A stretch of 8,391 nucleotides of DNA, from the NCBI GenBank assembly GCA_003489395.1, contig DNMN01000040.1, positions 1 to 8,391 of the forward strand, read 5' to 3'. This document shows positions 611 through 8,391 of the stretch, one piece after another. The translations under genes were made by a program, and so were the position numbers. The notes under the pieces were generated by a model, which saw only the letters and a list, made by a program, of their open reading frames with translations, was not told the origin of the DNA and ran no database searches. Positions within the stretch are counted from its first letter, which is position 1, and each line of letters opens with the position of its first letter. Source of the DNA: Candidatus Yonathbacteria bacterium. Lineage in GTDB: Bacteria; Patescibacteriota; Minisyncoccia; Phycocordibacterales; UBA1550.

Positions 611-1696
611 ATGAAAAAAATATTACTGCCTGCAGTTTTAATTGTTGCTATCATTGTTTCAATTGGCGTACTCAAGCTCTCAGGATTTTTCCTTCCTGAT
701 GAAAAAGTTTACGTTGCTGTTGAAGGAGCGGGCTACATTGCAGTTATTGACTCAAAAAAGCAAACAAGATTCCGCACGATTGACCTCTCAATAGAGCAGA
801 ACGACAGCACCTTAACGTTTGCGCCTCACAATGTTCAGGTTTCTCCGGATGGCAAAAGCGTCTGGGCTACCGCAAATATGGACAAAAACCGAGATGTTGA
901 CGCGCGGCACCTGCCAAACGAGGTGGTTGTAATTGACCCAATAACCGACAGCGTTATAAAGCGCATCCCCACATCCCCCGGTATCTTTCTCGCGCATATA
1001 GCATTTACCACTGACAATAAATACGCTTATGTGACGGCGCAAATGGAAGGAGTAATCTACAAAATCAATGCCTCAACCTACACAATTGAAAAGAAAATTA
1101 ACACAGGAATAGACAGCGAGCCTCATGGTATTCGCATGTCTCCAGACGGCTCATCGGCTTATATCGCTTTCTTCAAGAGTAAGGGTTTTGGAATACTTGA
1201 TCTCAAAACAGACACAGTCACTGTAACATCTCTCCCAGGAACGGCTGTTCAGACTGGGGTCACGCCAGACGGTGAATACGTTGTCGTATCAATCTTTGAC
1301 ACGAAGCAACTCGCCATTTACAACACAAAAACAAAAAAAATGGATTACCTAGAGCTCCCAGCAGATGCGAAAGGCCCTATTCAAATGTACCCAACTCCTG
1401 ATTCGCGTTTTATGTACCTTGCAGATCAGGGATATTATTTTGGCACGCCCGTTGGAACGCAGGTTTACAAAATTGACATTGCCGCGCAAAAGATAGTAAA
1501 GGAAATAAAAGTCGGCCAAGGGCCTCACGGAGTGGTTGTTTCAAAGGACGGAGCATTTGTGTATGTCACAAACATTCTTTCTGGGAAAGTGTCCGTCATT
1601 GACACATCAACAGATCAAGAAATTTCAACTATTTGGGTTGGCAAGGAACCAAATGGCATCAGTGCTTGGTCAAAGAAATTAGGAGGAACACCGTAA
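611..1696 (+). CDS. Membrane-anchored YVTN/YncE-type beta-propeller protein
   Basis: The product has 361 residues. A hydrophobic N-terminal segment (about 4-22, after MKK) acts as a signal anchor, so the rest is probably outside the cytoplasmic membrane. The remainder consists of repeated propeller blades with a strand-turn pattern, such as VYVAVEGAGYIAVID (about 33-47) and AYVTAQMEGVIYKI (about 139-152). The last blade is a near-canonical YVTN repeat: FVYVTNILSGKVSVID followed by WVGKEPNGI. Each blade ends in a turn of the SPDG/TPDG kind (SPDGKSVW, SPDGSSAY, TPDGEYVV, SKDGAFVY). The length fits a seven-bladed propeller of the YncE family. Such proteins bind partners or ligands; no catalytic residues are apparent and the ligand is unknown. 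It is divergent from the sensor gene and ends at a strong terminator. The gene call is secure, the family likely, the role open. Confidence 0.85.
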   Translation: MKKILLPAVLIVAIIVSIGVLKLSGFFLPDEKVYVAVEGAGYIAVIDSKKQTRFRTIDLSIEQNDSTLTFAPHNVQVSPDGKSVWATANMDKNRDVDARHLPNEVVVIDPITDSVIKRIPTSPGIFLAHIAFTTDNKYAYVTAQMEGVIYKINASTYTIEKKINTGIDSEPHGIRMSPDGSSAYIAFFKSKGFGILDLKTDTVTVTSLPGTAVQTGVTPDGEYVVVSIFDTKQLAIYNTKTKKMDYLELPADAKGPIQMYPTPDSRFMYLADQGYYFGTPVGTQVYKIDIAAQKIVKEIKVGQGPHGVVVSKDGAFVYVTNILSGKVSVIDTSTDQEISTIWVGKEPNGISAWSKKLGGTP

Positions 1697-1834: not shown

Positions 1835-2878
1835 CTAATTTATCTCAATATCAATATGCCGTACAGCAGGAATCTCCTTTTTAATTCTTTCCTCAAGTTC
1901 GTCAATGCGTGTGCCAATCACGCGCGGTACGCGGTCTGTATAGTCCACAACATACCGAAGAAACTCTTGGTAATCCCCTTTTATCATCTCGTAATCATCT
2001 TTAAGCATCACGCCGTTTGAAAGTTCTTTAAAAAGCGCAGTACCGTTTATTTCTGCCTCACACTTCGCTCTGTATTTCCCAAGCTCCACAACAGACGACT
2101 TGAAATCATGCACGCGCTCAATCATCGGGTCTGCAACAAGTATTTCAATAATCCTATCCTTCACCTCCTCTGGAATAGACTTCTCCACCAAAAAACGCTT
2201 ATTTTTCAATATCAAAACGATTGCGACCCACGCCAAAAGCATACCAATGACGATAGAGCCCATCGCGTCCCACATAGGATTTCCCGTGAAATACGAAAGT
2301 CCAACAGAAACTCCCGCGACAAAAACACCAAAGACTGCAACGCCGTCTTCATACACCACAGCAAGCACTGTCGGGTCGCCATCTTGAAACGCTTCAACAA
2401 GGGTCGCATCCTCCCCTCTCTCGTTCCAAAGTTCACGAAATGCAATTGAAAAAGTAATGAGCTCGACGACAAACGCAATTGCGAGAATAATAAAAACTTC
2501 TGGCTTTATAGTAAGCTCCTCTGGGTTCAATAGTGTGTGGACACCGTGATAAACGGTAATCCCAGCACCTACAAAAAATACTCCGCAAGCGGAAATCAAG
2601 GCCCAAAAGAACCTTTCAAGCCCGTACCCATATGTAGAATCCTCATCAGGCGCGCGACGACTCTTTACAATGCCGACCATCAGCAAGGCCTGATTCGCGG
2701 TGTCCGCAAAACTGTGCACCGCCTCAGAAAAAAGGGAGCTTGAGCCAGAGACAGCAAAACCAATAGCTTTTAGAATTGTAATTGTAAAATTCCCTACAAG
2801 CGCGGCAACAACAGAAACAAAGCCGGGTTCTCTCTTATAGCCAACAACCTTACTATTTAGTTTTTCTAATTTGTTCAT
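1835..2878 (-). CDS. Cation diffusion facilitator (ZnT9/SLC30A9-like), probable zinc or other divalent metal transporter
   Basis: From the ATG at 2878 the product has 347 residues. Six membrane segments can be placed at about 20-42, 49-70, 90-110, 127-147, 172-196 and 203-225, followed by a soluble C-terminal domain. The second segment holds SEAVHSFADTANQALL with H55 and D59 in the HxxxD metal-site position. The fifth holds VVYEDGVAVFG with E177-D178. The stretches YGYGLERFFWALISACGVF and YFTGNPMWDAMGSI match the pattern I know from the SLC30A9/ZnT9 branch of the family. Family members exchange metal ions for protons across the membrane; the metal is inferred. The frame is open upstream to a TTG at 2932, but those codons lie in a degenerate tRNA copy (GHPDKD reads its acceptor end). 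I therefore take the ATG, with AGGG six bases before it, as the start. Confidence 0.9.
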   Translation of the reverse strand: MNKLEKLNSKVVGYKREPGFVSVVAALVGNFTITILKAIGFAVSGSSSLFSEAVHSFADTANQALLMVGIVKSRRAPDEDSTYGYGLERFFWALISACGVFFVGAGITVYHGVHTLLNPEELTIKPEVFIILAIAFVVELITFSIAFRELWNERGEDATLVEAFQDGDPTVLAVVYEDGVAVFGVFVAGVSVGLSYFTGNPMWDAMGSIVIGMLLAWVAIVLILKNKRFLVEKSIPEEVKDRIIEILVADPMIERVHDFKSSVVELGKYRAKCEAEINGTALFKELSNGVMLKDDYEMIKGDYQEFLRYVVDYTDRVPRVIGTRIDELEERIKKEIPAVRHIDIEIN

Positions 2879-2908
2879 AAAGAGCCCTGCGGGGCCTTGG
2901 TCAAAATC

Positions 2909-2969
2909 CTTGTCGGGGTGCCCTATGTCCAAGACAAGATTCTGTTGAATCTGAATCGAACTCGGCCTA
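2909..2969 (-). pseudogene. Degenerate, interrupted copy of the 3' part of tRNA-Pro
   Basis: Two blocks repeat the neighbouring tRNA-Pro exactly. Positions 2953-2969 equal 3042-3058 (17 bases: variable loop and T arm), and 2911-2922 equal 3028-3039 (12 bases: acceptor 3' strand with flank). In the intact gene these blocks are 2 bases apart; here they are 30 bases apart. The extra bases hold a hairpin with arms AGATTC/GAATCT. No matching 5' half is found, so this is not a working tRNA. Confidence 0.6.
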
Positions 2970-3229: not shown

Positions 3230-3685
3230 CTATAACACAATATTCTGCAGAAATTTTACGCTTGCCCGTCTAGTTTTAGTATCAATTTGCACGGTAATTG
3301 CGTCAAAAACCCATTCTGGTTCCCCATTTGCATGCTTCTCAAACAAATATAATTGGATAACACGCGCTAATCTCTTGAGTTTATATGGGTGCAAATTGTC
3401 CTCTGGGCGATATTTATCTGTTACACGCGAAACATTATCTTTACATAGGCCTCGCCTATGGGGACTATCTGTTTCACGGGAAACATTTCTGCCAAGGTTT
3501 TCACGTGTAACGCTTTTTACTTCAATAAAATGCGTAATTCCGGCCTTTTTGGCAATAACGTCAATTTCTCCGCACTTTTTAAGGTAATTTCGCTCAATTA
3601 CCAGAAAACCCTTATTTTCTAGGTATTTTACGGCAATATCCTCACCTAAACGACCGATCTTCTGCTTTTCTGTGGGTTCCGCCAT
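3230..3685 (-). CDS. yraN: YraN/UPF0102-family putative endonuclease with an in-frame insertion carrying parS-like repeats
   Basis: The product has 151 residues from the ATG at 3685. The restriction-endonuclease-like core is intact: GEDIAVKYLENKGF with E15, KKCGEIDVIAK with D42, then FIEVKS with E55 and K57, forming the D/E-ExK nuclease centre. A C-terminal helix and strand follow (YKLKRLARVIQLYLFEK, VFDAITVQI). Family members are usually about 115-125 residues. The excess lies after the ExK motif (about 58-93), where three similar peptides, SVTREN, NVSRET and NVSRVT, are each encoded by a 16-base palindrome resembling parS. An ATG at 3694 is in frame, but it overlaps the best -10 hexamer, so I prefer 3685. 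The substrate is unknown; DNA processing is a family-level inference. It is divergent from the HTH gene across a 329-base non-coding region. Confidence 0.85.
   Translation of the reverse strand: MAEPTEKQKIGRLGEDIAVKYLENKGFLVIERNYLKKCGEIDVIAKKAGITHFIEVKSVTRENLGRNVSRETDSPHRRGLCKDNVSRVTDKYRPEDNLHPYKLKRLARVIQLYLFEKHANGEPEWVFDAITVQIDTKTRRASVKFLQNIVL
3419..3434. promoter_or_regulatory. parS-like site 1 (one mismatch), inside the YraN gene
   Basis: TGTTACACGCGAAACA matches the known Bacillus-type parS consensus TGTTNCACGTGAAACA at all but one defined position. On the coding strand it reads NVSRVT. Confidence 0.6.
3444..3460. repeat. Small perfect hairpin between the two best parS-like sites
   Basis: CATAGGC (3444-3450) and GCCTATG (3454-3460) pair perfectly around a 3-base loop CTC. 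The hairpin lies inside the inserted part of the YraN gene. Confidence 0.5.
3470..3485. promoter_or_regulatory. parS-like site 2 (one mismatch), inside the YraN gene
   Basis: TGTTTCACGGGAAACA differs from TGTTNCACGTGAAACA at one central base. It lies 51 bases from site 1, in the same reading phase, and encodes NVSRET. Confidence 0.6.
3497..3512. promoter_or_regulatory. parS-like site 3 (three mismatches, perfect CACGTG centre)
   Basis: On the minus strand CGTTACACGTGAAAAC matches 12 of 15 defined parS positions, including the whole CACGTG core. It lies 27 bases from site 2, in the same codon phase, and encodes SVTREN. Confidence 0.45.
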
Positions 3686-3692
3686 CAAAATC

Positions 3693-3701
3693 ATTGTACC
3701 A
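3693..3701 (-). promoter_or_regulatory. Putative extended -10 of the YraN gene, consistent with a leaderless start
   Basis: On the minus strand TGG precedes TACAAT (3698-3693). Seven bases then separate the hexamer from the ATG at 3685, which would place the transcript start on or next to the start codon. The -35 region overlaps the parS-like palindrome at 3710-3725, so a protein bound there could repress this gene. Confidence 0.42.
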
Positions 3702-3709
3702 TTTTAGGG

Positions 3710-3725
3710 CGTTTCTCGTGAAACA
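3710..3725. promoter_or_regulatory. parS-like site 4 (two mismatches), upstream of the YraN promoter
   Basis: CGTTTCTCGTGAAACA matches 13 of 15 defined parS positions. It is non-coding and lies just upstream of the YraN -10. Its 14-base core recurs exactly at 6313-6326. Confidence 0.5.
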
Positions 3726-3770
3726 CCTTAGAATTGCCATATTTTAGCCTAAAAATGGGGTAATTCCTGT

Positions 3771-3795
3771 GAAACCCTTACATATCAAGGGTTTC
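3771..3795. repeat. 9-bp perfect inverted repeat in the candidate origin
   Basis: GAAACCCTT (3771-3779) and AAGGGTTTC (3787-3795) flank a 7-base loop. There is no T run after it, so a terminator is unlikely. It may be a protein site or an RNA hairpin. Confidence 0.5.
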
Positions 3796-3857
3796 CCGCG
3801 ATTTTGCTTCATGTCCTTTACGGTTTGCGCCTCTATAATGACACACTTTTATGTCCT

Positions 3858-3887
3858 TTATCAACACTATCCACATAGTTATCCACA
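3858..3887 (+). promoter_or_regulatory. Three tandem DnaA-box-like 9-mers
   Basis: TTATCAACA (3858-3866), CTATCCACA (3867-3875) and TTATCCACA (3879-3887) lie head to tail. The last equals the DnaA consensus TTATNCACA; the other two differ from it by one base each. Confidence 0.6.
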
Positions 3888-3927
3888 GTTTTGAGCATTT
3901 TCCCCCATATTTTTCCGTTTCCAGCCG

Positions 3928-3944
3928 TTGACACCATGTGTCAA
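3928..3944. promoter_or_regulatory. Operator-like palindrome TTGACAC-CAT-GTGTCAA
   Basis: The 7-bp arms are perfect around a 3-base centre. The left arm contains TTGACA, but no -10 lies at the right distance on either strand. This fits a dimeric regulator site better than a promoter. The nearest downstream gene is the HTH protein at 4024, which could bind it, though that is only a positional guess. Confidence 0.45.
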
Positions 3945-3989
3945 AGTAGTGCTCTCTGGTAACGGATGTCCTTTAGGAATGAATGTGCC

Positions 3990-4017
3990 TAGAAAAACCG
4001 AACACCCGTGCTATACT
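3990..4017 (+). promoter_or_regulatory. Putative promoter of the HTH/LAGLIDADG-like gene, consistent with a leaderless mRNA
   Basis: TAGAAA (3990-3995), 16 bases, then TATACT (4012-4017) with TGC in front as an extended -10. Six bases separate the hexamer from the ATG at 4024, so transcription should start at the start codon. No Shine-Dalgarno is present. Confidence 0.5.
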
Positions 4018-4023
4018 TAGTAC

Positions 4024-4716
4024 ATGCGTACAGATAAAGATAAGGCAATAAATTTGCGCAAAACCGGTAAGAGCTATTCAGAGATTGAAGAGGAATTAAA
4101 AATACCTAGAAGCACACTGTCTGCGTGGTTTAAAGGTTCAGCATGGTCACAAAGAATAAAGGAGGATCTTAGCTCAACTGCGGTAACAAAGAGTACTGTG
4201 CGAATTATAGAGCTCAACAATATTCGTGGAGTGCATCTTGATAAGCTATATACTCAAGCAAGGCTGGAGGCACTGAAAGATTTTGAGGCACTCAAATTCC
4301 ATCCAACATTTATTGCTGGAGTGATGTTGTACTGGGGAGAAGGAGATAAAGCATCCAAACATCGCGTATCGCTGACAAATACTGATCCTGCAATGATTAA
4401 AATCTTTATTAATTTTCTTAAAGATGTTTGTGATATCAACGACGAAAAAATAAAAGCATGGCTTCTTTTGTATCCGGATCTTCAAGAAACAAATTGCAAA
4501 GAATACTGGATAAAGGAAGCTGGCTTACAAAATATTACTTTTAATAAGAGCATCTATATAGATGGCAGACACAAGACTAAACGTTTGGGGTATGGTGTAT
4601 GCACTGTTGGTGTTTCTAGTAGATATTTTAAGGAAAAGGTGTTATTGTGGATTTCACTATTCCCTGATATGCTTTCTGGCAGGGAATTATATGGTAAAAA
4701 TGCGGATATAATTTAG
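4024..4716 (+). CDS. HTH plus LAGLIDADG-like protein overlapping tRNA-Gly
   Basis: The product has 230 residues. The N-terminus (about 5-38) reads as a helix-turn-helix of the recombinase/homeodomain-like kind: DKAINLRKTGKSYSEIEEEL then IPRSTLSAWF. After a helical linker, HPTFIAGVMLYWGEGDK (93-109) resembles a LAGLIDADG motif, with the acidic residue of GEG in the metal-binding position. TNTDPAMIKIFINFL (118-132) follows, as in that fold. Only one such motif is clear, so a dimer or a repurposed DNA-binding protein is possible. Homing activity is not shown. There is no Shine-Dalgarno, and the -10 sits six bases before the ATG. The last five codons and stop lie in the first 15 bases of tRNA-Gly, the TAG falling in its D arm. 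Transcription through the tRNA is likely, and the two products need different processing of one RNA. Confidence 0.78.
   Translation: MRTDKDKAINLRKTGKSYSEIEEELKIPRSTLSAWFKGSAWSQRIKEDLSSTAVTKSTVRIIELNNIRGVHLDKLYTQARLEALKDFEALKFHPTFIAGVMLYWGEGDKASKHRVSLTNTDPAMIKIFINFLKDVCDINDEKIKAWLLLYPDLQETNCKEYWIKEAGLQNITFNKSIYIDGRHKTKRLGYGVCTVGVSSRYFKEKVLLWISLFPDMLSGRELYGKNADII
4659..4687 (+). repeat. 8-bp inverted repeat just upstream of tRNA-Gly
   Basis: ATTCCCTG (4659-4666) and CAGGGAAT (4680-4687) could form a hairpin with a 13-base loop. It lies in the 3' end of the HTH gene, 14 bases before the tRNA, so it may mark a processing point in a shared transcript. Confidence 0.4.
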
Positions 4717-4772
4717 TGGTAGAATTCCTCGTTGCCAACGAGAGAGTGGGAGTTCGATTCTCCCTATCCGCA
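4702..4772 (+). tRNA. tRNA-Gly (anticodon GCC)
   Basis: The 71-base cloverleaf has acceptor GCGGATA/TATCCGC, D stem ATTT/GAAT, anticodon loop TTGCCAA on stem CCTCG/CGAGA, a 4-base variable loop, and T stem GGGAG/CTCCC with loop TTCGATT. The outermost anticodon-stem pair is a C-A mismatch. A73 is the discriminator and no CCA is encoded. No convincing promoter of its own is visible, so it is probably transcribed with the overlapping upstream gene. Confidence 0.94.
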
Positions 4773-4776
4773 CAAT

Positions 4777-4821
4777 AAAAAACAAATGAACCAACCCTGA
4801 GGGTTGGTTCATTTGTTTTTT
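4777..4821. terminator. Bidirectional intrinsic terminator between tRNA-Gly and tRNA-Arg(TCG)
   Basis: A perfect 21-bp stem (4777-4797 and 4801-4821) has a 3-base loop TGA. Six A at one end and six T at the other let it serve both convergent tRNA genes. Confidence 0.9.
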
Positions 4822-4822
4822 G

Positions 4823-4894
4823 TGCCCTCAGAGGGAATCGAACCCCCATCCTCGGTTCCGAAGACCGGTACTCTATCCGTTGAGCTATGAGGGC
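4823..4894 (-). tRNA. tRNA-Arg (anticodon TCG)
   Basis: The 72-base cloverleaf has acceptor GCCCTCA/TGAGGGC, D stem GCTC/GAGT, anticodon stem CCGGT/ACCGA with loop CTTCGGA, and T stem GGGGG/CCCTC with loop TTCGATT. The outermost anticodon-stem pair is C-A and the T stem has one G-U pair. The discriminator is A and no CCA is encoded. It converges on tRNA-Gly and is divergent from the cca gene. Confidence 0.94.
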
Positions 4895-4922
4895 AACGAA
4901 ACCACACTGAAGTGATACTGAG

Positions 4923-4951
4923 ACTGTACCGCAAAAGTAGTCAAAAGGCAA
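4923..4951 (-). promoter_or_regulatory. Putative promoter of tRNA-Arg(TCG)
   Basis: On the minus strand TTGCCT (4951-4946), 17 bases, and TACAGT (4928-4923) each match 4 of 6 positions. The predicted leader before the tRNA is about 20 bases. It lies back to back with the start region of the cca gene, where a TATAGT hexamer precedes the ATG. Confidence 0.35.
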
Positions 4952-4978
4952 AAAAAACTGTATAGTTTCAATAACTAA

Positions 4979-6454
4979 ATGAAGTCTGATATCTCGTATA
5001 AAATACCTTCTGAGGTTTCACATGTAACAGAAACCTTGCGAAACGCAGGGTTTGAAGCATATCTCGTGGGTGGATGTGTTCGCGACATATTGCAGGGGAT
5101 TAAGCCAAAAGACTGGGACGCCACCACAAATGCTACTCCGGAACAGATCCAGGCGCTTTTTGAGAATTCTTTTTATGAAAACGACTATGGTACCGTTGGC
5201 ATTGTAAATGAAACAGATGATGAAACTTTAAAAGTCGTAGAAGTAACCCCGTACCGAAGTGAAGGCGCATATACAGACAAACGCCGCCCAGACAGCGTTT
5301 CGTTTCACGGGAAACTAGACGAAGACCTAAAACGACGTGATTTCACTATAAACGCTATTGCATACGACGAATCTAAAGGACATCTAACGGACATTCATGG
5401 CGGTCTAAAGGACATAAAGGACAGAGTCATTCGTACAGTAGGGAATCCACAGGAGCGTTTCAACGAGGATGCTCTTCGTGTTCTCCGCGCGGTACGTCTT
5501 GCCACAGACCTTGGTTTCATAATTGAATCTGAAACTCAAAACGCAGTTGTAGAGAAAGCAGGGGATTTGAAGCACATCTCTATGGAGCGTATTCGTGATG
5601 AATTTACGAAAATGATAATGACAAAGAACCCGATGATTGGAATTGTTATGTGCCAGAAACTTGGACTTCTAAAATATATCGCGCCTGATATTGAGCGTGG
5701 AATTGATGTTGAACAAAACGGCGATCACATTTACACAGTGTGGGAACACAACCTGCGCGCGCTACAACACTCTGCGGACCGCGAGTGGCCTCTCCACGTG
5801 CGACTCGGCGCGCTCCTTCATGATGTTTCAAAACCAGAGACACGACGTTGGTCAGAAGAAAAAAATGATTGGACATTTTATGGGCACGATGTAGTGGGTG
5901 GACGTGTTGCAAAAAAAGTTCTTGAACATTTAAAATATCCTAAAAAAATTGTTGATGTTGTTTCAGCACTCGTGCGTTACCATTTGTTTTTTTCTGACAT
6001 AGAAAAGATTACGCTCTCCGCGGTGCGTCGCATTGTGAAAAATGTTGGACCAGACAATGTGTGGGACTTGATGAAAGTTCGCGCATGCGATCGTATAGGA
6101 ATGGGCCGTCCAAAGGAAGCGCCTTACCGTTTGCGTAAATATGAATCAATGATAGAGGAAGCGATGCGCGCGCCTGTGTCTGTGGGAATGCTAAAGATTG
6201 ATGGAGAAAAAATAATGGAGGTTACTCGTGAAACGCCGGGTCCAAAACTTGGCTTCATCCTCCACGCCCTCCTAGAGGAAGTGCTTGACGACCCCGAGCT
6301 CAACACAGAAGCGTTTCTCGTGAAACGCACACTTGAGCTCGCAAAACTTCCTATTGATGAATTAAAAAAACTTGGTGAAGAAGGAAAAGAAAAGAAAGAG
6401 GAAGAGGAAGAAAAAGAACTCGCAGTGATTCGCAAGAAGCACGGGGTGAAATAA
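4979..6454 (+). CDS. cca: CCA tRNA nucleotidyltransferase (class II, with HD domain)
   Basis: This cytoplasmic enzyme adds or repairs the 3' CCA of tRNAs from CTP and ATP. The product has 491 residues. The class II nucleotidyltransferase head holds LVGGCVRD (29-36), the catalytic pair in DWDATT (D45, D47), and RRDFTINAIA (119-128). The neck has NEDALRVLRAVRLATDLGF (162-180). An HD domain follows with H257, HD at 281-282 and ACDRIG with D371. The C-terminal region LKIDGEKIME...PGPKLGFILHALLEEVL is typical of CCA enzymes. A charged, low-complexity lysine/glutamate tail (about 462-487) ends the protein. All four tRNAs in the window lack encoded CCA, which fits this job over poly(A) polymerase. 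No Shine-Dalgarno is evident; a TATAGT lies about 13 bases before the ATG. Four parS-like palindromes and two exact TAAAGGACAT copies are embedded in the coding sequence. Confidence 0.94.
   Translation: MKSDISYKIPSEVSHVTETLRNAGFEAYLVGGCVRDILQGIKPKDWDATTNATPEQIQALFENSFYENDYGTVGIVNETDDETLKVVEVTPYRSEGAYTDKRRPDSVSFHGKLDEDLKRRDFTINAIAYDESKGHLTDIHGGLKDIKDRVIRTVGNPQERFNEDALRVLRAVRLATDLGFIIESETQNAVVEKAGDLKHISMERIRDEFTKMIMTKNPMIGIVMCQKLGLLKYIAPDIERGIDVEQNGDHIYTVWEHNLRALQHSADREWPLHVRLGALLHDVSKPETRRWSEEKNDWTFYGHDVVGGRVAKKVLEHLKYPKKIVDVVSALVRYHLFFSDIEKITLSAVRRIVKNVGPDNVWDLMKVRACDRIGMGRPKEAPYRLRKYESMIEEAMRAPVSVGMLKIDGEKIMEVTRETPGPKLGFILHALLEEVLDDPELNTEAFLVKRTLELAKLPIDELKKLGEEGKEKKEEEEEKELAVIRKKHGVK
5014..5029. 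promoter_or_regulatory. parS-like site 5 (two mismatches), in the start of cca
   Basis: GGTTTCACATGTAACA matches 13 of 15 defined positions of the parS consensus read in its reverse form. It encodes EVSHVT, the same codon phase as the YraN repeats. Confidence 0.42.
5301..5316. promoter_or_regulatory. parS-like site 6 (three mismatches), in cca
   Basis: CGTTTCACGGGAAACT shares its 14-base core GTTTCACGGGAAAC exactly with site 2 at 3471-3484. It is in a different reading phase, so shared peptide selection does not explain the identity. Confidence 0.4.
5374..5423 (+). repeat. Three copies of TAAAGGACA in cca
   Basis: TAAAGGACAT occurs at 5374-5383 and 5406-5415. TAAAGGACA occurs again at 5415-5423, overlapping the second copy by one base. 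The first is read in a different frame (KGH) from the others (LKD, KD). Confidence 0.75.
6220..6235. promoter_or_regulatory. parS-like site 7 (three mismatches), in cca
   Basis: GGTTACTCGTGAAACG keeps the GTTnC-CGTGAAAC arms. It encodes EVTRET, close to the YraN repeat peptides. Confidence 0.35.
6312..6327. promoter_or_regulatory. parS-like site 8 (three mismatches), in cca
   Basis: CGTTTCTCGTGAAACG is a near-perfect palindrome, extended by one more pair to GC on each side. Its core equals the non-coding site 4, but it is read in another frame (FLVKRT). Confidence 0.38.
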
Positions 6455-6489
6455 AAAATATCTTAGCGAATCTAAGATATTTTTTATTT
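6449..6489. terminator. Bidirectional terminator shared by cca and exonuclease III
   Basis: A perfect stem of 18 bp (6449-6466 and 6472-6489) encloses the loop CGAAT, with A and T runs at the two ends. The stop codons of both convergent genes (6452-6454 and 6486-6484) are part of the stem. Confidence 0.88.
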
Positions 6490-7251
6490 TAATTCTAATA
6501 CAATAGGGCAGTGGTCGGAACCGAGGAAGTTGGTGAGCATTGAAGTTTCCTTCACGCGGGGGAGTAAGTCGTAAGTAATAAAAAAATAATCTATGCGCCA
6601 ACCGACGTTGCGATCGCGCGCGGAAGTTTTCATATCCCAATATGTATAAACATCTTTTGTATTTGGATGAATGTGACGATAGATATCAATGTAGCCGTGA
6701 TAAATGAGTTCATCAATCCACGCGCGTTCTTCTGGTAAAAATCCAGTATTCTTTTCATTCTCTTTTGGGCGAGCAAGATCAACAGCTTCGTGCGCAGTAT
6801 TTACATCACCGCAGATAATAACCTTGTGCCCCTTTTTGCGGAGCTTCTCTGTGAAAACGAGAAATGCGTCATAAAAGTCTAGCTTATATTTCAATCGGAC
6901 AGGCCCACCGCCACCATTAGGGAAGTAGCAATTCAAAAGGACAAAGTCGTGAAAGTAAAGGACAAGAAGGCGACCCTCTTGGTCAATGTCCTTTAGACCC
7001 ATTCCTTCCTCCACCTTTTCAGGCTTTTCTTTTGTATAAACAGCCACACCGCTGTACCCCTTTCGCATTTTTGAGTGTGAAAAGTATGCAAAATAGCCCT
7101 TTGGCGCGCGGACTTCTTCGGGAAGCTGAGTTTCTTCAACTTTTGTTTCCTGTAAACACAAAATGTCAAAATCTTTTTTTATAATTTCAGCAAAATTGCC
7201 TTTCTTGTGAATTGCGCGTAAGCCATTAACATTCCAAGAGATTATTCTCAT
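6484..7251 (-). CDS. xthA: Exonuclease III (AP endonuclease, ExoA/XthA type)
   Basis: The enzyme cleaves DNA at abasic sites and removes 3'-blocking groups in base excision repair. The 255-residue product covers the whole endonuclease/exonuclease/phosphatase fold and has the family's normal length. Visible catalytic motifs are ISWNVNG (N7), LQETK (E35, metal), CYFPNGG (Y109), GDVNTAH (D149, N151), WRIDYFF (D221) and GSDHCPI (D246, H247). NTGFLPEERAWID is the conserved loop before the C-terminal half. All key residues are present, so it should be active. The ATG at 7251 begins the conserved first strand MRIISWN. A TATACT hexamer lies six bases upstream and there is no Shine-Dalgarno, which suggests a leaderless mRNA. 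It converges on cca and shares its terminator. It is divergent from the small coiled-coil gene. Confidence 0.96.
   Translation of the reverse strand: MRIISWNVNGLRAIHKKGNFAEIIKKDFDILCLQETKVEETQLPEEVRAPKGYFAYFSHSKMRKGYSGVAVYTKEKPEKVEEGMGLKDIDQEGRLLVLYFHDFVLLNCYFPNGGGGPVRLKYKLDFYDAFLVFTEKLRKKGHKVIICGDVNTAHEAVDLARPKENEKNTGFLPEERAWIDELIYHGYIDIYRHIHPNTKDVYTYWDMKTSARDRNVGWRIDYFFITYDLLPRVKETSMLTNFLGSDHCPIVLELK
6956..6995. repeat. TAAAGGACA repeats in the exonuclease III gene
   Basis: TAAAGGACA lies at 6956-6964 on the plus strand, and ATGTCCTTTA (its reverse complement extended by one base) at 6986-6995. AAAGGACA also occurs at 6936-6943. Confidence 0.7.
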
Positions 7252-7602: not shown

Positions 7603-8391
7603 TTATCTATTATGGAACTTCTTGTGTACGTTTCGTAGTTCGCTATCTGTAATATGAGTATAGATTTGTGTTGTGGAAATATTTGAATGACCGAGCATCA
7701 TCTGCACAGAGCGAATGTCGGCGCCATTGTAAAGCAAGTCAGTTGCAAATGAGTGCCGTAAAATGTGTGGAGTAACTTTGTCCATAATGCCGGCCTTTAC
7801 AGCATAAAACTTTACCATGCGTTCTATTGAGCGGGGACTGAGGCGAAACGAACCGTCTACTCTTGCCTTCTTCCCTTCACTCACAAAAAGCGCGTCGTCC
7901 ATATCAGTCCTCTTTTTTAAATATGCTGTAATTGCTTTTTTTGCATCATCTGAAATAAAAACCACGCGCACTTTTTCACCTTTTCCACGGACAGATATTT
8001 CATCGCGTGTAATATCAATATCGCGAGAGAGCGCGCACAACTCCGACAAACGAAGCCCAGTAGAAAAAAATAATTCAAGAATTGCCTTGTCGCGAAGTTC
8101 CTTCACTCCGTCTCCGCTCGGCGCATCTAGTAGTCGCCTCAAATCCTGTGGCGTGAGCAAATCAATAGTGCGCTCAGCGACCTTCGCAAGTTCAATACGC
8201 TCTGGCGCGTACGACTCCACGCCTCGTTTACGTAAATATTTTAGAAAACTGCGAATGGCGATGAGATAATAATTTTGTGTTTTCTTCTTTAATGTTTCCT
8301 GGCGACCATCACGCACTCCAGCTTTTTGGCGGTTGAGCCACAGCCGAAACGTGCGCATAAGTTCGTCGTCAATGTCTTTTGGTTCTTTTGC
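7603..8391 (-). CDS. Tyrosine recombinase of the XerC/XerD type, 5' end outside the window
   Basis: The frame stays open to the window edge, with the codons before the ATG at 8358 reading KEPKDIDDEL, so the true start is outside. The visible part begins in the N-terminal SAM-like core-binding domain (FRLWLNRQ, TQNYYLIAIRSFLKYLRKRG). The catalytic domain has the full set, numbered from the ATG at 8358: R103 in STGLRLSEL, K126 in RGKGEKVR, H198 and R201 in PHILRHSFATDLL, H224 in LGHSNISTTQIYTH, and nucleophile Y233. The C-terminal end after YTH is short, as in XerC/XerD rather than phage integrases. Xer enzymes resolve chromosome dimers at dif near the terminus; many CPR genomes carry a single such gene. 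No dif site is visible. It converges on the small coiled-coil gene. Confidence 0.93.
   Translation of the reverse strand, partial: AKEPKDIDDELMRTFRLWLNRQKAGVRDGRQETLKKKTQNYYLIAIRSFLKYLRKRGVESYAPERIELAKVAERTIDLLTPQDLRRLLDAPSGDGVKELRDKAILELFFSTGLRLSELCALSRDIDITRDEISVRGKGEKVRVVFISDDAKKAITAYLKKRTDMDDALFVSEGKKARVDGSFRLSPRSIERMVKFYAVKAGIMDKVTPHILRHSFATDLLYNGADIRSVQMMLGHSNISTTQIYTHITDSELRNVHKKFHNR

Follow-up and report, generated by a model that had tools for sequence, protein, structure and literature searches.

A likely chromosomal origin with a predicted ParB centromere, lying mostly inside yraN and cca, in a Yonathbacteria-like bacterium

The stretch of DNA analysed here, termed the window, makes up a complete contig (G000:C60, 8391 bp); the genome from which it comes is Yonathbacteria-like (Parcubacteria) and is assembled as 639 kb in 62 contigs. 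The nearest named relatives are Candidatus Yonathbacteria; further out lie Nomura-, Zambryski-, Taylor-, Kaiser- and Wolfebacteria. A cluster of palindromes resembling parS, the site bound by the partition protein ParB, extends across yraN, cca and the DNA between them, in which three tandem DnaA boxes are found. An initial annotation read this cluster as an origin-proximal centromere, and clustering, the presence of ParB and the GC skew of the window's genus support that reading. Very likely the window contains a chromosomal origin joined to a predicted ParB centromere that lies mostly inside yraN and cca, would recruit SMC and would be kept by selection on the DNA. The features concerned are listed below, the palindromes without strand.

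3230..3694, minus strand: yraN (UPF0102); PF02021 at 61.9 bits against a cut-off of 23.6; predicted PD-(D/E)XK-like fold, with three parS-like sites in the loop
3419..3434: parS-like site, one mismatch; in yraN, coding NVSRVT (residues 87-92)
3470..3485: parS-like site, one mismatch on both strands; in yraN, coding NVSRET (residues 70-75)
3497..3512: parS-like site, three mismatches; in yraN, coding SVTREN (residues 61-66), directly after the ExK motif
3710..3725: parS-like site, two mismatches; intergenic, 15 bp upstream of the yraN ATG
3812..3819, minus strand: AAAGGACA repeat, copy 1
3852..3859, minus strand: AAAGGACA repeat, copy 2, overlapping the DnaA-box edge
3858..3889, minus strand: candidate oriC core of three tandem DnaA boxes, minus-strand ACTGTGGATAACTATGTGGATAGTGTTGATAA
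3858-3866: DnaA box 1, TTATCAACA
3867-3875: DnaA box 2, CTATCCACA
3879-3887: DnaA box 3, TTATCCACA
3967..3974, minus strand: AAAGGACA repeat, copy 3
4979..6454, plus strand: cca, CCA tRNA nucleotidyltransferase (PF01743, PF12627, PF01966), with four parS-like sites
5014..5029: parS-like site, two mismatches; in cca, coding EVSHVT
5301..5316: parS-like site, three mismatches; in cca, coding SFHGKL in another frame
6220..6235: parS-like site, three mismatches; in cca, coding EVTRET
6312..6327: parS-like site, three mismatches; in cca, coding AFLVKR in another frame

A pattern search with the consensus TGTTNCACGTGAAACA, mismatches being taken on the better strand, recovers all eight 16-mers of the initial annotation (at 3419, 3470, 3497, 3710, 5014, 5301, 6220 and 6312) with the same tally of 1, 1, 3, 2, 2, 3, 3 and 3 mismatches. 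The three DnaA-box-like 9-mers within 3858-3887 were likewise verified by direct reading of the sequence. Even a single one-mismatch hit had been judged very unlikely by chance in 8.4 kb, and the counts agree: 14 matches over both strands compare with a mean of 0.34 and a maximum of 3 in shuffled sequence, and none of 200 dinucleotide-preserving shuffles of the window reached 14. With up to three mismatches allowed, strand-matches in the source genome number 38, of which this 8.4-kb contig contains 14 and the remaining 631 kb contain 24. Since a reversed control pattern yields 22 matches over the whole genome, those outside the contig are at chance level. The palindrome is thus concentrated here rather than spread evenly, in the sole cluster of the 639-kb assembly. 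The genes flanking the DnaA boxes, yraN (-) and a helix-turn-helix open reading frame (ORF) (+), do point outward. The initial annotation missed that only site 3710 is intergenic: the other seven all fall within coding sequence, yraN containing three of them and cca four. Site 3710 has a counterpart at the same place, with one mismatch, in G013, G008 and G004, of which G013 is the closest relative of the source genome (G000) and, with G001, belongs to the window's genus.

The cluster recurs among relatives. The sample comprises 61 genomes, 55 with a match to yraN (15 of the window's genus and 40 each from another family), and all 55 loci were analysed. For this count the consensus was the fully specified TGTTTCACGTGAAACA, three mismatches being allowed, a stricter pattern under which sites 3497 and 6220 of the window are not counted. 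At least one site lies within -4000..+1500 of yraN in 53 of the 55 genomes, at least three in 46; in the other families 35 of 40 have at least two around yraN. The site-free pair, G032 and G035, have loci covering only 3.2-3.4 kb. Leaving aside G043 and G018, whose yraN is broken, the 53 remaining loci contain 221 sites in 254 kb near yraN (-4000..+1500) against 16 in 488 kb in the rest of the same loci, a 27-fold difference. Control palindromes with permuted half-sites (n = 59) average 1.3 sites near yraN, with a maximum of 7. When six genomes were searched in full, the best sites fell in or beside yraN and cca. Within the window's genus, 12 of 15 genomes have at least one site in the yraN span itself; among the other families, 26 of 40 do. 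A second, overlapping sample of 80 named loci gives 339 sites near against 9 far, with at least two near yraN in 71 and one within it in 64; it is not taken as an unbiased survey because the search pattern contained EVK[TS][VI][ST].

Outside the order the sites are largely missing. An outgroup was formed from the best-scoring 30 of 102 yraN-matching genomes across the phylum, with loci reaching 1.5 kb to each side, and any site at up to three mismatches was found in one of the 30. The boundary is imperfectly sharp: G163, of the same class and another order, has arrays of the near-parS sequence TGTTTCGCGTGAAACA at 52-bp spacing (G163:C12:22114-22233 and G163:C4:27-198), one of them about 1.6 kb from yraN. 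Another relative of the same class, G103, carries the fully symmetric TGTTCCACGTGGAACA three times (G103:C8:12276-14135), perhaps the site of its own ParB.

The DnaA boxes share this position. A 32-base pattern of all three boxes, searched with three mismatches allowed, has a single match in each of 26 of the 61 genomes, and its reversed control has none. In all 25 genomes that have both this core and yraN, the window included, it lies no more than about 600 bp upstream of yraN in the same orientation; 15 of the 25 belong to the window's genus. In the 600 bp upstream of yraN the motif AAA[GA]GACA reaches 6.4 times its density in the remainder of the loci, with 83 of 97 upstream copies on the yraN strand, and the AAAGGACA repeats flanking the boxes could be an origin element. 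In G050 the core match lies at the extreme 5' edge of the yraN frame (G050:C6:54394-54425); it reads there as the peptide TVDNLGDNVHK, so origin and gene may overlap in this genome.

The initial annotation had made its reading depend on a ParB in the genome. ParB (TIGR00180) is found in 41 of 41 genomes, that of the window included. The source-genome parB is interrupted by an assembly gap; full copies are present in G013, whose ParB has 334 amino acids, and in G017. The N-terminal, helix-turn-helix and C-terminal domains were found in the two intact copies scanned, together with the N-terminal GERRxRA motif, and the C-terminal domain is of the dimerisation type. In G017 parB is about 350 kb from yraN (711.8 kb and 84 kb, respectively, on a 981.5-kb contig). 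By eye, parB stands beside a relA/spoT-like gene with topA nearby (L176:14352-15189, L250:3471-4475, L252:5291-6400). Of 14 genomes, 13 have a recognizable SMC gene, its open frame 724-797 amino acids long and both head halves matching TIGR02168; G039 gave weak matches only, and all 14 genomes score below the family cut-off. Pfam reported no SMC hinge domain in the two genomes scanned. Two SMC genes of about 750 amino acids (L247:1817-4060, L248:2475-4745) lie beside genes that look by eye like rnc and nusB.

ParA presents a different picture. A single Pfam model (PF13614), applied to eight genomes, found ParA in only one and not in the source genome, against 14 of 14 control genomes, Escherichia coli among them. 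The one positive match is on a 10-kb contig with an ORF that looks integrase-like by eye, and no ParA-like ORF start was seen beside parB in G000, G013 or G017. Because ParA was not found in seven of the eight genomes, recruitment of SMC is preferred to a ParA gradient, with the array probably serving to mark the origin and to load SMC. The alternative that survives best keeps the same origin and array and supposes a classical, ParA-driven parABS system, its ParA too diverged for Pfam or replaced by another ATPase. It draws on the presence of ParB in every genome searched, on the site clusters in most loci, and on the pneumococcus, where ParB works with the ParA-like CpsD according to the available part of PMC7022226. 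The contrast with the control genomes, the integrase-like neighbour of the single match and the unaccompanied parB genes make it unlikely, though it deserves to be kept in mind.

Where replication starts was addressed by cumulative GC skew. The source genome is itself in 62 contigs, and the calculation was run on 11 relatives over 40-200 kb around the locus. The predicted minimum near the DnaA boxes is borne out in the window's genus (G013, G001); across the order the outcome is mixed. In five of the 11 the minimum is no further than 2.5 kb from yraN: 375 bp upstream in G013, 640 bp upstream in G017, 1.4 kb away in G058, 1.4 kb away in G001, where dnaA is also near, and 2.5 kb away in G029, where dnaA is 3.4 kb from yraN. 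It falls within 1.4 kb of dnaA in G041, G050, G051 and G022, with yraN 27-60 kb off, and at neither gene in the remaining two, being 31 kb from yraN in G030 and 10 kb in G018. All 11 minima are within 60 kb of yraN. The complete contig of G017 has the opposite skew switch at 470-500 kb. An earlier view from coarse samples, that the skew switches at yraN in all four relatives sampled, was dropped when joined stretches placed G041 at dnaA and G030 at neither gene. The absence of the usual origin neighbours, remarked on in the initial annotation, needs correcting as regards dnaA, which is encoded in 13 of 13 genomes examined and shares the contig of yraN in 11 of them, 0.5-59 kb apart.

In the window's genus the predicted origin is thus well placed upstream of yraN. 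For the order as a whole, lineages seem to differ, some starting replication at yraN and some at dnaA. Because four of the 11 minima are at dnaA and two at neither gene, the array outside the window's genus is described as origin-proximal, not always at the origin. The start appears to have moved between yraN and dnaA within the order, the parS cluster staying at yraN. It could instead be held that replication starts at dnaA, the ParB sites being merely origin-proximal and the boxes at yraN secondary or regulatory. The four minima at dnaA favour this, as does a DnaA-box cluster beside dnaA in G013 and G017 too. These two genomes, however, have both box clusters, and their minimum is nevertheless at yraN, 33-38 kb from dnaA; that of G058 is likewise at yraN. 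Conversely, none of the four genomes with the minimum at dnaA has the three-box cluster at yraN: the core match is missing in G041, G051 and G022, and the one in G050 has three mismatches. The core also occurs only once per genome where it is found. This alternative is accordingly improbable.

Slightly less probable still is that the partner of the palindromes is not a partition ParB but a nucleoid-occlusion protein like Noc, or else a transcription factor. The NCBIfam Noc model does give the G013 ParB 193.9 bits, below its cut-off of 315. The GKSR and GHAR motifs of ParB align with Spo0J and correspond to positions 170-173 and 201-204 of Caulobacter ParB, the numbering being transferred by motif spacing and not by alignment of the chains. 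At the specificity positions R173 and G201, as given in the available part of PMC7383237, the protein retains the Arg and Gly of ParB, where Noc has Gln and Arg. The sites agree: at base 2, G makes up 91% against 4% for A, and at base 7, A makes up 79% against 6% for C, figures that are favoured by the choice of sites for likeness to parS. The sites are not of the Noc type, TATTTCCCGGGAAATA.

The sites in genes are also protein-coding sequence. Among the 62 sites within 53 yraN genes (G043 and G018 excluded), 54 are read in the frame giving VSRET-type peptides, eight as FLVK/FLMK and none in the third frame, where a TGA falls within the consensus. When yraN and cca are recoded synonymously, 10-25 times fewer sites remain. 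The null draws on the codon usage of all long frames per locus and is a rough one; G043 and G018 were left out for yraN, as were G014, G037 and G042, which have a stop inside the aligned span. On this basis 50 yraN genes contain 55 sites against a mean of 5.2 and a maximum of 11 in 300 recodings; the other families alone contribute 40 against about 4 (per-gene rows summed). The cca gene is present in 46 of the 55 loci, in some partial at the locus end, and is divergent from yraN in all 46; these genes contain 85 sites against a mean of 3.4 and a maximum of 8 in 200 recodings. Because recoding loses most of the sites, the codons of yraN and cca look selected for the DNA site. Site positions in cca differ between families, as would be expected if sites are gained and lost. 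The two yraN genes broken by stops or frame changes keep sites, G043 one at two mismatches and G018 two, at one and three mismatches.

A VSRET-like motif is present in 22 of 53 YraN proteins of the order by a strict definition and in 43 by a loose one, against 1 and 2 of the 21 proteins recovered from the 30 outgroup loci. In these 21 the catalytic EVK precedes a short segment that in most includes an FG.P.E-like motif. An AlphaFold2 model built on a 20-sequence alignment has a mean predicted local distance difference test (pLDDT) score of 82, with residues 68-76 and 79-93 below 50; these contain the peptides of sites 3470 and 3419. UPF0102 membership is supported by profile and fold alike, the best solved Foldseek match being 3fov (E 6e-8), and the modelled loop likely tolerates site-encoded peptides. 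That VSRET is instead a functional YraN peptide and the palindrome a by-product of codon usage is very improbable, for although the loose motif is present in 43 of 53 proteins, recoding removes about 90% of the yraN sites, the loop is disordered in the model, and sites also occur in two yraN frames, at shifting positions in cca, in intergenic DNA and in two broken genes. Some yraN genes carry short palindromes inserted in frame in the loop (window 3444-3460; L057:9971; L059:9915; L061:19542), and a GAATTAGCAAATTC-type short palindrome is found elsewhere in the window's genus. These recall the palindromic elements found inside genes of Rickettsia. Mobile palindromes as a general carrier of sites into yraN were considered and rejected, most in-gene sites having no shared flank by eye.

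A broader proposition is that the order has no separate centromere element: its centromere is written into the active-site loop of YraN, as repeated VSRET, and into spots of the CCA-adding enzyme, the residues there being dictated by ParB binding. It would have stayed in these genes while the start moved between yraN and dnaA, serving without ParA as an origin mark and SMC platform. The chances of this are about even. Against the main reading, a likely origin with its predicted ParB centromere, stand several observations besides the skew minima away from yraN and the reliance of the ParA result on one Pfam model in eight genomes. The yraN span is site-free in 17 of 55 genomes and cca in 11 of 46 loci, counting the stretch of cca covered. 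No match to the core is found in 35 of the 61 genomes. Six of the 61 have no yraN match, and five of these six are without the palindrome at two mismatches; one, G016, still has the DnaA-box core. Six of the eight sites in the window have two or three mismatches. In a 12-kb view, 21 of 36 loci have the local skew minimum upstream of yraN and no more than 1.7 kb from it; local skew partly tracks gene orientation.

For the window itself, the evidence strongly favours a predicted origin with a ParB centromere. Sequence shows the position, clustering and conservation of the sites, the codon bias, the presence of ParB and the non-detection of ParA; the mechanism envisaged from these is as follows. 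(i) DnaA would bind the box array at 3858-3889 and open the adjoining DNA. (ii) ParB, encoded elsewhere, would load at the palindromes and spread over yraN, the origin and cca. (iii) The ParB complex would mark newly copied origins and aid their segregation. (iv) It would most likely do so by recruiting the short SMC, not through a ParA gradient. (v) DNA-level selection would keep the sites, the codons chosen letting the protein read through the palindrome, mostly as VSRET-type peptides. Because the sites lie within genes, the same letters spell protein and would also bind ParB.

For a large group of small genomes known mainly from metagenomes, the locus allows origin and centromere to be mapped from sequence, and it is a clean example of how a function at the level of DNA can alter the protein encoded by a conserved gene. 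With a ParB-parS set in a small genome that apparently lacks ParA, the role of ParB without ParA can be tested. In practice, the core upstream of yraN can aid in orienting and checking assembled genomes of the window's genus.

The remainder of the window, which has four tRNA genes, was annotated with Pfam and NCBIfam as follows.

611-1696, plus strand: beta-propeller protein
1835-2932, minus strand: cation efflux protein
4024-4716, plus strand: helix-turn-helix ORF, between the DnaA boxes and tRNA-Gly
6484-7251, minus strand: exodeoxyribonuclease III
7603-8391, minus strand: tyrosine recombinase, Xer type

The helix-turn-helix ORF has no confident family in the Pfam and NCBIfam scans. It is apparently also present in G013, and is not found at that position in G008 or G004.

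The open-licence literature, including the available part of PMC7111523, yielded nothing on parS, the origin or ParB in this group, and comparison is made with better-studied systems. The chromosomal ParABS systems of Bacillus, Caulobacter and Pseudomonas have the same 16-bp palindrome, clustered near the origin, and a chromosomal-type ParB; here, by contrast, ParA was not found in seven of eight genomes and parB is unlinked to the origin. Noc and its binding site (NBS) belong to a homologous protein family with a related palindrome, from which the present system differs in having ParB-type specificity residues and site bases 2 and 7. The nearest working parallel is Streptococcus pneumoniae, for which the accessible text of PMC7022226 describes an orphan ParB with four parS sites near oriC and no ParA, its ParB complexes recruiting SMC. 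That organism is of another phylum; the SMC is short here, at about 750 amino acids, and the sites are concentrated in yraN and cca. Placement of parS within ORFs has precedents. In Pseudomonas aeruginosa nine of ten parS sites are predicted in coding sequence (PMC4368675, from the part available), and in repABC replicons of Rhodobacterales parS lies in ORFs, where selection on the DNA is suggested by the authors in the portion available of PMC9040568. The present case differs in using one pair of genes throughout an order, and in having a loop beside a predicted catalytic motif rewritten as repeated parS-coding peptides. Intragenic parS and ParB-parS without ParA are each already known separately; what is new is the order-wide rewriting of yraN and cca.

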